The notes under the pieces were generated by a model, which was given only the letters and a program-made list of their open reading frames with translations, was not told the origin of the DNA and did not search any database. Below, piece by piece: positions 35,938 through 38,779 of a DNA stretch of 58,443 nt. A program made the translations under genes and the position numbers. The DNA is from Geobacteraceae bacterium (GTDB taxonomy: Bacteria > Desulfobacterota > Desulfuromonadia > Geobacterales > DSM-12255), in contig JACABD010000005.1 in the NCBI GenBank assembly GCA_013377075.1, positions 1 through 58,443 on the forward strand, in the 5' to 3' direction. The stretch's first letter is position 1. Each line of letters starts with the position of its first letter.

Positions 35938-37557
35938 ATGCAACGTTTTTACAGACACTTTGTATCACTTACCATCTGCACACTTCTGCTCTTTTCCATC
36001 TCCCCGGCAGCAAGGTGTGAAGATGCAGGAGCATCATCAATTAACATCAAGCAGGTGGCCGATGGACTGGTCCTCATTGTCAACAGCAGCCAGAAGAGCC
36101 TTGATGACGTAAAATTCGACTGCAGCCAGGGTAGTAACGAAATCGTTGTCGAACTCCCCGCCGCCAATGAGCCGTCAATTCTAGATCCGCTGAAGAAAAA
36201 CCCCAATGTGGCAATGAACGGACTTTCATCAACAATGCTCTCCAGAGAGATAATGCAGGCCAGAATTACCCCGAAACTGAAGCTGAACTGCTCCGGCCTG
36301 AAGATGGTGAGCAGATTCCAGAGATACGTCACCTATCTTTATCCGGCCGGAAGGGATCTGAAGCTTGTCTCTGCCGAGATCAAAGGCTTTGACTTTGATG
36401 AGAACAGGCCACGATCCCAGGTAAACGGCTCCCTCAATCTGAAATTCAATGAACCTCTCGGCTCTGTCGACATTACGGATGCAGTAAGTTCGGCTGATAA
36501 CAGGTTATCAATCAATCTGAATCCAAAGGATTTTGTCCGCCTTGAAGCTATTTCCAGCACCTCATATCCAAACGAGTTGACCCTGAAGATCTCCAGACCG
36601 GATCCTTTTGAGCCTTATCTTCTCACCTTTGAGAGCCTGAAAAGTGCCGTTATCAGCAAGGTGAAGGCCAAAACCGTAAGATCAGCGGAAAGCAATGAAC
36701 TGCGCATTGACCTGACCCTGACGCTCGCGCTCTACGAAACCGGCAAAAAACTCTATCAGGACGGAGATACCCGCAAGGCACTTCTCTACATGGATGCAGC
36801 CAAGAGCGACCCGGCCACTGCCCTCGTATCACGGATGTCGGTCGGGACAATTCTCTGGAATGACGACAACTACAAGGATGCGGCAAAGAGTTTTAAAGAG
36901 CTGGTAGAGATGGATCGGGGGTGGGAATTCCCTGAAGCCAGGTTCTATCTGGCAAAAACATCGTACATGGCAAACAACCGCCTCAGCTTTGAACAGACAA
37001 ACATGCTGAAAGAGTTTTTACGGCGCTGCGACAGGATGAAATACGGGACCTGTAGCGATGCAAAGGAACTGTCAGACCAGGTGAATGAACCGGCGCTGAA
37101 ACTGAACCTTGCCTCAAAGCCTGAGCTGAAAAAGCTGGCAGCAAAACTCGCAGATCCGCGTATAAACCAGAGCGAGGTACAGAAAAACATCTTTCACTAC
37201 TGGGCGACCTGGTGCCCGCTCTGTCTGGAAGAGATGCCTAAAATCATGAAATACGCCATGGCCCATCCGAATGTGTCGATCTACATTGTTGCCAAAAACG
37301 ACACCCCGAAGGCGATAATGGCCACCCTGTTAAAGGCCGGGGCAATCAGAAGGAATAACATTTTCTATTATATCGACACAAAGGACGATATTATGCTGCG
37401 CCAGACTGTGCCGCTGATCCTGGCGAACAAGGAGCCTGTGACGCCGCTCCCCATCTCGGTCTTCATGCAGCGGGAGGTCCCGTTCTACATTACGGACCGG
37501 CTTGACTGGAACGAGGCGCAGCTCTCGCAGATCTGGAAGTTGAAGTATAATGAATGA
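35938..37557 (+). CDS. exported TPR/thioredoxin-fold protein
   Basis: A 539-residue periplasmic protein with a signal peptide (LTICTLLLFSISPAARCED). Residues about 30-260 are beta-rich and resemble AMIN-like secretin/peptidoglycan-binding repeats (KFDCSQGSNEIVVELP, SLNLKFNEPLGSV). Residues about 265-365 look like tetratricopeptide repeats (LYETGKKLYQDGDTRKALLYM). Residues about 415-535 are a thioredoxin fold with the redox motif WATWCPLC (C426, C429). TlpA/ResA-like proteins use such CxxC sites to reduce periplasmic disulfides. The combination is unusual and its partner is unknown. GAGGGG lies 4 nt before the ATG. A DsbD-alpha-like gene lies downstream in the same direction. Confidence 0.75.
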   Translation: MQRFYRHFVSLTICTLLLFSISPAARCEDAGASSINIKQVADGLVLIVNSSQKSLDDVKFDCSQGSNEIVVELPAANEPSILDPLKKNPNVAMNGLSSTMLSREIMQARITPKLKLNCSGLKMVSRFQRYVTYLYPAGRDLKLVSAEIKGFDFDENRPRSQVNGSLNLKFNEPLGSVDITDAVSSADNRLSINLNPKDFVRLEAISSTSYPNELTLKISRPDPFEPYLLTFESLKSAVISKVKAKTVRSAESNELRIDLTLTLALYETGKKLYQDGDTRKALLYMDAAKSDPATALVSRMSVGTILWNDDNYKDAAKSFKELVEMDRGWEFPEARFYLAKTSYMANNRLSFEQTNMLKEFLRRCDRMKYGTCSDAKELSDQVNEPALKLNLASKPELKKLAAKLADPRINQSEVQKNIFHYWATWCPLCLEEMPKIMKYAMAHPNVSIYIVAKNDTPKAIMATLLKAGAIRRNNIFYYIDTKDDIMLRQTVPLILANKEPVTPLPISVFMQREVPFYITDRLDWNEAQLSQIWKLKYNE

Positions 37558-37566
37558 TTCATCGTT

Positions 37567-37740
37567 GGCAGATGGCAGCTGCCGGAGTGAGTGCTCAGGC
37601 TCTATTTCGTCGTAACTCTTGGTGAAATGGAGCGTAAAGCAGATCCTGTCTGAGCGAAGCGAGTTGATCTGCTGTAGCGCAATGAGCCTAGAGTTACAGA
37701 AATTGAGCCGTCACACGAACGAAGGTAGCTGCCAGCTGCC
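37567..37740. repeat. long palindromic MITE-like element
   Basis: A stretch of about 174 bp that is nearly self-complementary from end to end. The outer arms 37567-37583 and 37724-37740 match as inverted repeats at 15 of 17 positions. Inside them GGCTC (37598) pairs with GAGCC (37705), ATTTC (37604) with GAAAT (37699) and GTAACTCT (37612-37619) with AGAGTTAC (37690-37697). The core AGCAGATC (37638-37645) pairs with GATCTGCT (37666-37673) around a 20-nt loop containing GAGCGAAGCGAG. No open reading frame of its own is supported, and no clear target-site duplication flanks it. It looks like a non-autonomous mobile repeat or extragenic palindrome that would fold into one long RNA hairpin. Confidence 0.8.
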
Positions 37741-37786
37741 GGTTTCAAACAGATATTCAAAACCAATAGGCATTCGGAGGAGCACC

Positions 37787-38779
37787 ATGAAAAGCGGTAA
37801 ACTGGTAATTTGTCTGTCAATATTTTCCCTGTTTCTAAGCGTCAGCAGCTTTGGGGCAACCTATGACGTTATTGCCCCGAAAGCGCAGAAAGCTGCCGAG
37901 AAGAAGCCGACTGCCGAAGCCCAGGCTGTTACTGCAAAACCGGCACAGACCTTCCAGCCAGATGCCGTATCAGCCAATCCATGCCCCAATGAAACCGGCT
38001 GGCTCCTCTCCACCGTCCCCATGACCACCCCGGAAAGCAATGATCAGAAATTCTCCAAAAACCCGGGAAGCGCCTTTCTCCCTGAAGATATGCAGAAAGA
38101 GCTGGTGAATATTGCCGCCAAGGAAAACATCTCAATGAAGGAGCTCTGCGGCAAGCTGAGCACGTACAAAACCAGACTGGAGGAGTATTCAGGCGACCCA
38201 CAGGAGTACAACCGGCAGCGGATGCTGGTACTTGATGAGATGCTCGACTGCAGAAAAAGCTGCGGCAAGATCCTCAACAAATTTGCAGCGCTTTACACAG
38301 AAAGCTCCAGAGTCTATTTCAGCGGCATAGTCAGGTTCAACGCCGGCTCTGCCAGGGTTGTCAGCAGCTTCAAGGGGGACAAGAGCCACGGCCCGATCCA
38401 GATCAACAATGAAGAGCAGCTGAAAGCAGCCCTTGTAAAGTGGCAGAAAGACCCGAGCCAACGGATCCAGCTTGACGCCAGGTCGTCAATCCCCGGCTCC
38501 GTAGAGATCAATGACCGCATCTCCAAGGTGAGAGCAGAAGCGGTTCAGGGGTGGCTGGTTGCGAAAGGGGTTCCGGCAGGGCAGATCAACATCAAGTGGC
38601 TCGGCAAATACGGCCCGTTGATCAACAAATCTGTAGCAGCGGCATATAACATCGAAGCTGTTTTCAACGAGTACAAAAATATCGGCGCAAAGCAGTCCAC
38701 AAGCCTCATCGGCTCACAGGGGATTGAGTCGTTTTTCGACGGTCTCAACCAGAGCGTCTGTATCTTCGTACTCCCTTAG
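37787..38779 (+). CDS. secreted OmpA-like domain protein
   Basis: A 330-residue exported protein with a signal peptide (KLVICLSIFSLFLSVSSFGA). After a proline/alanine-rich linker and a helical middle region with paired cysteines (LDCRKSCGKI), the C-terminal half resembles an OmpA peptidoglycan-binding domain: VRFNAGSARV, then NDRISKVRAEAVQGWLVAKG and VPAGQINIKWLG. The canonical GHTD loop is replaced by DARSS, so peptidoglycan binding is uncertain. The ATG at 37787 has GGAGGAG upstream. An apparent upstream extension runs into the palindromic element and is not part of the protein. The DsbD-alpha-like gene follows after 21 nt. Confidence 0.65.
   Translation: MKSGKLVICLSIFSLFLSVSSFGATYDVIAPKAQKAAEKKPTAEAQAVTAKPAQTFQPDAVSANPCPNETGWLLSTVPMTTPESNDQKFSKNPGSAFLPEDMQKELVNIAAKENISMKELCGKLSTYKTRLEEYSGDPQEYNRQRMLVLDEMLDCRKSCGKILNKFAALYTESSRVYFSGIVRFNAGSARVVSSFKGDKSHGPIQINNEEQLKAALVKWQKDPSQRIQLDARSSIPGSVEINDRISKVRAEAVQGWLVAKGVPAGQINIKWLGKYGPLINKSVAAAYNIEAVFNEYKNIGAKQSTSLIGSQGIESFFDGLNQSVCIFVLP

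Follow-up and report, generated by a model that had tools for sequence, protein, structure and literature searches.

A probable IS1380-type MITE in Geobacterales whose hairpin RNA appears to be kept by selection

The palindromic element discussed here, about 190 bp long, is very probably a MITE, i.e., a non-autonomous DNA transposon, of a type that IS1380-family transposases mobilise, with a + strand hairpin RNA that is kept by selection. It lies in the window, i.e., the whole 58,443-nucleotide stretch of a Geobacteraceae genome that was analysed, and would have inserted directly after the stop codon of one gene, 37 nt before the start of the next, and co-oriented with both. The preliminary description had placed a palindrome without a gene between an exported thioredoxin-like gene and an OmpA-like gene, and the ORF list and the coordinates bear this out. 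The upstream gene, encoding the exported thioredoxin-like protein (539 aa), occupies 35938..37557 on the + strand, and the downstream OmpA-like gene, with its ATG at 37787, occupies 37787..38779 on the same strand. Within the element, a frame that opens with a TTG at position 37619 continues into the OmpA-like ORF without a change of frame (37619-38779). This frame could mislead gene callers; we read it as chance and not as a gene.

Positions 37567-37740 fold as one hairpin without branches, with an energy of -85.4 kcal/mol against a mean of -54.7 for shuffles (sd 4.23, z -7.26), and 0 of 200 shuffles were as stable as the native fold, which confirms the near-complete palindrome reported for this interval. 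The internal blocks named in the preliminary description are partners of each other in the computed fold. The slight offset of the symmetry axes was also recovered; its cause, previously sought in transposition or recombination of a palindrome, is assigned here to small unequal internal loops of one conserved hairpin. The hairpin body (37567..37740) is assigned to the + strand, the strand under structural selection as judged from folding, covariation and wobble bias (see below). In the fold, its outer helix is formed by inverted repeats at 37567..37583 (left arm) and 37724..37740 (right arm), both given on the + strand. The apical module spans 37638..37673 (+ strand), with the family consensus TGTYTGA-hairpin-GAGTTNATC inside its stem and with columns that are conserved in two alignments (A2 and A4), and the apical motif is exact at 37647-37669. 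In copies that have target duplications, each end of the element is 8 nt outside the model match (see below), so that the element in the window should extend over about 37558-37749. With these family boundaries the whole MITE copy (37558..37749, + strand) adjoins the stop codon ending at 37557; its ends are degenerate or eroded and a target duplication is not recognisable. At about 190 bp (below 500 bp), noncoding, and with an outer helix of 16 pairs as terminal inverted repeat, the element has the features by which a MITE is recognised.

A search for further copies, proposed in the preliminary description, found the palindrome to be dispersed and multicopy. BLAST located it at 21 places in its own genome (a 3.71 Mb draft), 18 of which cover at least 154 of the 174 bases at 78-100% identity. 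By BLAST the element is present in 15 of 58 genomes including its own, i.e., in 14 of 57 relatives, and a covariance model built from 72 copies detects it in 19 of 58 (18 of 57 relatives). The model matches number 30 in G003, 21 in G000, 20 in G048 (which we take to be Pelobacter propionicus), 18 in G005 and 18 in G002. When contigs of named genomes were scanned with an exact pattern, 55 stretches were returned, 54 of them titled Geobacter, Geobacteraceae, Deltaproteobacteria or Geomobilimonas luticola. The pairwise identity among 20 model-placed own-genome copies (median 0.835, max 0.938) argues against a very recent burst. One copy (L261, 85.5 bits) sits on a contig of 77,113 bp (G036:C2), presumably a plasmid of G. 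lovleyi, the species that we assume for G036; this is a possible route of spread. At another locus (L070), two copies in inverted orientation are separated by about 850 bp; the 241-aa ORF between them resembles ribulose-phosphate epimerase by eye, and on this ground it was rejected as a transposase.

The sites of insertion can be compared with vacant orthologous sites. Strong orthologues of the thioredoxin-like gene are found in four of the 12 relatives searched, and in the other eight the match is weak and confined to a short segment. The four with strong orthologues keep the thioredoxin-like and OmpA-like pair; in each of them the OmpA-like gene comes next after a few tens of bases, nothing being inserted between, and the covariance model finds no copy in these four junction loci (L109-L112). 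The window junction is too diverged for a base-exact insertion point; by eye, sequence resembling that of G002 resumes about 17 nt past the hairpin, which would agree with an element longer than the hairpin itself. A second own-genome copy (L018) lies between two genes that we presume, from their sequences, to be queA and mutS. The queA orthologue is present in eight of nine genomes, and the model detects no copy at these eight loci; four of them have mutS next, with spacers of about 30 to 170 nt, and the element is absent in 4/4. The insertion at L018 has altered the end of queA, in that the frame enters the element and its last codons and stop come from the element. For a third own-genome copy (L014), the search returned no close orthologues of the site. 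The empty sites that had been asked for are therefore vacant in 4/4 relatives at the window junction and in 4/4 syntenic relatives at queA-mutS, the comparison genomes being other species. The preliminary description had named a single copy in all relatives, or a lack of covariation and of empty sites, as what would speak against a mobile element; the outcome was the opposite.

These data bear on the possibility that the palindrome is a conserved host structure, which between these two genes could be a cis-regulatory RNA of fixed position or an intrinsic terminator. Such a role would agree with a strong hairpin just after a stop codon and with the placement of the copies in the own genome, 0 of 19 of which lie inside an ORF according to crude ORF calls, while some overlap an ORF end. 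T-rich stretches (at least 6 T in 10 nt) follow the + end in 5 of 150 copies and the - end in 21 of 150, relative to a background of 3/450. We nevertheless consider a host structure improbable, given the absence of the element from the same junction in the four relatives, and given that the own-genome copies show no orientation preference. For the 17 of 19 that could be scored (crude ORF calls), 10 have both neighbours in the same direction (5 and 5), four are convergent and three divergent. Moreover, most copies are without a T tract on either side. In our interpretation, the 21/150 T tracts of the - strand are probably due to the AAAA at the left end of the element, and the 9/150 and 13/150 T tracts that are seen after skipping the ends fit AT-rich insertion sites.

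The family alignment (A2) holds 72 of 81 copies; L017, L019, L020, L021, L062, L075, L096, L107 and L108 were omitted before folding as truncated, interrupted or poorly bounded. The 72 copies fold as one hairpin of 48 pairs, in which 95.9% of the cells are paired and 39 pairs have changes on both sides. None of 500 shuffles reaches any of five structure measures, and slid registers drop to 29-44% paired. The arm sequences vary between copies and are complementary within each copy. The mismatched parts are strongly conserved, namely tandem G.A steps (e.g., GUGAGU/CGAAC and GCGAA/UGAGC) and the apical module UGUCUGA...GAGUU. Rfam returned nothing at gathering score in the window region or at 10 further loci.

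The wobble pairs suggest which strand is under selection. On the + strand, G.U is found in 169 cells and A.C in 23, with 31 of the 48 columns favouring G.U, four favouring A.C and 13 tied (these counts ignore kinship). The best fold of the reverse complement has A.C 96 vs G.U 51, and for the 41 pairs common to the folds of both strands the + strand gives G.U 93 vs A.C 19, again ignoring kinship. In G048 the bias is reversed (G.U 2 vs A.C 7). Distant copies outside the model training give G.U 40 vs A.C 0, or 29 vs 0 when one conserved U.G pair is left out; this count comes from 19 rows (16 full length) in an alignment fitted to the model, with kinship ignored. Relative to their neighbours, the own-genome copies are found in either orientation, so that any strand bias in mutation caused by host transcription should largely average out. 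Collectively, the covariation, the conserved G.A modules and the one-sided wobbles point to selection on one strand, which we read as the + strand, most simply as RNA; selection on it as single-stranded DNA is less likely. The strand-specific covariation (39/48 pairs) and the conserved G.A modules thus support the structured RNA element that the preliminary description had offered as one reading.

An ordinary IS1380-type MITE without RNA function could also have matching arms, if these are kept complementary by DNA-level template switching (quasi-palindrome correction). Quasi-palindrome template switching is described in PMC8794818. The 151 model-placed copies (excluding L020 with an N run, L108 with an internal deletion, and L230, which is the same site as L075) contain six with at least five perfectly complementary bases beyond the model boundary (shuffle mean 0.47, max 3). 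In L002, the arm ends are jointly changed with four complementary bases beyond the boundary, and L010 and L078, which are outside the CCTGAATCC subfamily, have six complementary bases past it. In our reading, four of the six boundary-exceeding copies belong to the CCTGAATCC subfamily, the ends of which are further out, and the remaining two are within the shuffle range. If template switching perfected the arms, however, the mismatched G.A loops and the apical loop would be lost, and yet few parts of the element are better conserved than these; it also predicts no strand preference, against G.U and A.C cells of 169 to 23, and 40 to 0 in the distant copies. We therefore regard a MITE with no RNA function as unlikely, while template switching between arms may contribute to the arm matching of an element with a selected hairpin RNA.

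With respect to mobility, the left and right flanks of 150 of the 151 model-placed copies were compared at 625 offset pairs, the remaining copy being without a flank. At offsets of 8/8 nt beyond the model match, 11 of the 150 copies have exact 5-bp direct repeats, and 21 have a match of at least 4/5. Shuffles at this offset gave a mean of 0.43 exact repeats and a maximum of 3 in 500; they cover this offset alone, which was picked as the best of the 625 pairs. Exact repeats at other offset pairs number four in a neighbouring register and otherwise at most two. The duplicated words are ATAAA (twice), TTGAA (twice), TTTAT, ATTAT (twice), TTAAA, TTGAT, ATAAC and CTGAA, mostly of a WTNAW type. That the duplications are at different loci and mostly of different words argues for separate insertions. 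The 11 exact duplications come from five genomes: 7/29 in G003, 1/17 in G005, 1/13 in G048, 1/7 in G014 and 1/31 in a mixed group, where the one is from G035, presumably G. uraniireducens Rf4. No exact duplication was found among 19 own-genome copies, 17 in G002 and 17 in G009; the own-genome copies L012, L014 and L015 have a 4/5 match. Between 5-bp duplications, the intact ends of the subfamily to which the window copy belongs read CCTGAAAACGGCAG...CTGCCGAATCTAGG. Three copies of the CCTGAATCC subfamily (L242, L256 and L257) have, by eye, apparent 5-bp duplications (TTAAA, TGTAA and TTCAA) at a slightly shifted position. In addition, a 77-bp internal-deletion form in G003 (L293:1501-1577) is flanked by ATGAA on both sides, as read by eye, which suggests that the long interior may be dispensable for movement.

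A candidate source of the transposase is provided by the IS1380 family, of which ISEcp1 is a member. PF13701 (IS1380-type transposase) is above cut-off in two of the 58 genomes, G052 and G010, and each has a complete IS1380-family IS. The IS of G010 (L299, 1344-3035, 1692 bp) terminates in CCTGACTCCGTGA and TCACGGATTCAGG and is flanked by ATATA on either side, and that of G052 (L298, 43-1735, 1693 bp) has CCTGAATCCGTGA at both ends and the flanks AAAAA and AACAA. The L299 and L298 proteins score 298.6 and 329.9 bits, respectively, with the NCBIfam IS1380 transposase model (NF033539; cut-off 180). G010 contains both the IS1380 transposase and 10 copies of the element, and G052 is without a model match. 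The ends of a sister MITE subfamily are the CCTGAATCCGTGA of the IS: L240 is exact at one end, and its 15-nt terminal piece is identical to the L299 end, and L232, L256, L257 and L248 have the IS end with one mismatch at one end. The other ends of the sister-subfamily copies fit less well (two to six mismatches), and comparison of the MITE body with the IS interior gave no convincing relation beyond the ends. For the subfamily of the window, the agreement with IS1380-type elements is limited to CCTGAA and the 5-bp duplication. In the seven copy-rich genomes, including the own genome, PF13701 gave nothing over cut-off and one weak fragment in G005, and an IS with the ends of the window subfamily was not found in the genomes searched. 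An end-pattern search returned family copies and places at or near control level. Two facing exact end-words 33 kb apart in G048 enclose no element body and no recognisable transposase in the ORF lists, and were set aside as chance. We infer that the subfamily of the window owes its mobility to an IS1380-type transposase that has matching ends and acted in trans. Hence, the proposal of a MITE in the preliminary description has gained support from the dispersed copies, the vacant sites, the 5-bp duplication in a subset and the IS1380-type partner of the sister subfamily.

A hairpin that is strand-specific would also suit a REP/REPIN-like element mobilised by a RAYT (Y1 transposase) via a single-stranded DNA hairpin, and PF01797 is present in 50 of the 58 genomes, the own genome among them. 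Whether a genome has PF01797 is unrelated to whether it has the element (11 of 15 carriers of the element vs 39 of 43 non-carriers, as judged by BLAST), and neither the 5-bp duplication nor the ends common to IS1380 fit RAYT. To our knowledge, REP elements leave no duplication. We give this explanation hardly any weight.

If the element is indeed an IS1380-type MITE with a selected hairpin RNA, transcription of its + strand would give a hairpin RNA in the shape of a rod, in which the apical module is conserved and the internal loops have tandem G.A pairs. In a transcript reading through both genes, this hairpin would come to lie between the cistrons. Locally, it would most likely affect mRNA processing or stability and not termination. 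The hairpin might also have a cost-reducing role, either because a compact RNA rod would let operon transcription pass or because RNase III would process the rod. Such a role would fit the many copies close to gene ends.

Thus far, the discussion has concerned the order to which the genome belongs. In a phylum sample, 42 of 395 genomes match the model, four of them from the own order. Outside the order, only matches of at least 70 bits were counted as members, since the opposite strands of true copies score up to 68.1 bits and any long palindrome gains score. At this threshold, 18 genomes outside the order remain, the best with 112.6 bits over the full model length. The occurrence is patchy; in other orders of the same class, 0 of the eight genomes listed match. 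An alignment (A3) of 16 of the outside loci and three partial plasmid matches has double changes at 43 of 48 pairs. An exact 20-base apical piece, with a weak E-value of 0.4, was found on plasmids of Ilyobacter (Fusobacteriota), Parabacteroides and Aureibacter (both Bacteroidota). At three plasmid loci the apical piece caps a hairpin that is about 125 nt long (z-scores of -4.3, -2.8 and -2.6), and a shorter version is present on a Gastranaerophilales contig (L177; 37.7 bits, z -3.6). A fifth plasmid match, in Sphingobium, looks like chance and was rejected. Whole-element BLAST gave no match to plasmids, and the apical 38-mer none to phages. Four viral contigs that have the apical motif did not show the long hairpin when tested with the model, which matched no more than the tip in L305 (21.0 bits) and nothing in L306-L308.

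Several further features of these loci were observed. The viral contigs L306, L307 and L308, which are from one metagenome, have a common word close to AATAAGACCCTAGATGTYTGAGCGAAGCGAGTTGATCTT around the apical motif. Downstream of the hairpins of other phyla in L327, L328 and L329, a second hairpin of a GTTACTTTT...AAAAGTAAC type was seen by eye, and likewise one with TTTCTTTC...GAAAGAAA in L177. That the matches in other phyla belong to one family with the element is a lead, not proof. We consider it possible, if rather doubtful, that the element is part of a cross-phylum superfamily of mobile hairpin RNAs with a common apical module (TGTYTGA-GCGNAGC-GAGTT) and AGCGTNAA-type internal loops, with a folded RNA that is needed for spread in addition to the DNA ends or acts in trans in the host. 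If this is true, what these MITEs carry would be a structured RNA that has gone unrecognised.

What lies between the ends of a MITE is generally taken to be a leftover. In the present family no part is better conserved than the interior, across the order and, with lower certainty, beyond it, and the strand bias points to RNA. This makes it a testable question whether selection acts on the RNA of a non-autonomous transposon, and whether the RNA aids mobility, limits harm to operons or serves the host. A candidate IS1380-type transposase is now in hand, together with a model with which many intergenic repeats of Geobacter relatives can be annotated.

How, then, does the family relate to known systems? 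With the IS1380 family (NF033539) it has in common the 5-bp duplication and ends starting with CCTGAA, and one MITE subfamily has the ends of the G010 and G052 IS, whereas the window subfamily diverges after CCTGAA. As the MITE body is unrelated to the IS interior beyond the ends, the family would be a type II MITE by the definition given in PMC10969869 (section 6). The same review describes Chunjie, a small, intergenic MITE of Geobacter uraniireducens (variable in length, 178-235 bp, 38 copies with ends), which resembles the present element in being a small intergenic MITE of the same bacterial group. In G035, the probable Chunjie host, we find two model matches and one match of the apical motif. 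By copy number (two matches relative to the 38 copies of Chunjie), the two families appear to be different.

The ERIC elements of enterobacteria and the Correia elements of Neisseria have TA targets. Like the present family they are palindromic repeats of intergenic regions; they undergo transcription and are able to influence how mRNA is processed (PMC10969869). Compared by description, the window family differs in its 5-bp duplication, tandem G.A modules and apical motif. Palindromic multicopy intergenic families have been reported in Geobacter genomes (PMC2700814, PMC2996986 and PMC3543383), one of which is also in P. propionicus according to the legend of Additional file 19 in one of these papers. 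The accessible portions describe these "multicopy nucleotide sequences" with no model, target duplication or strand-specific covariation. The window family may already be among them, their alignments being in the supplements. In the literature covered, supplements being outside its scope, no named description of the window family was found. With REP/REPIN-RAYT systems it shares a hairpin, an intergenic location, non-autonomy and a high copy number; it differs in its target duplication, its IS1380-type ends and the lack of association with a Y1 transposase. MITEs as such are known; what sets the window family apart from an ordinary MITE is a covarying hairpin that is conserved on one strand.
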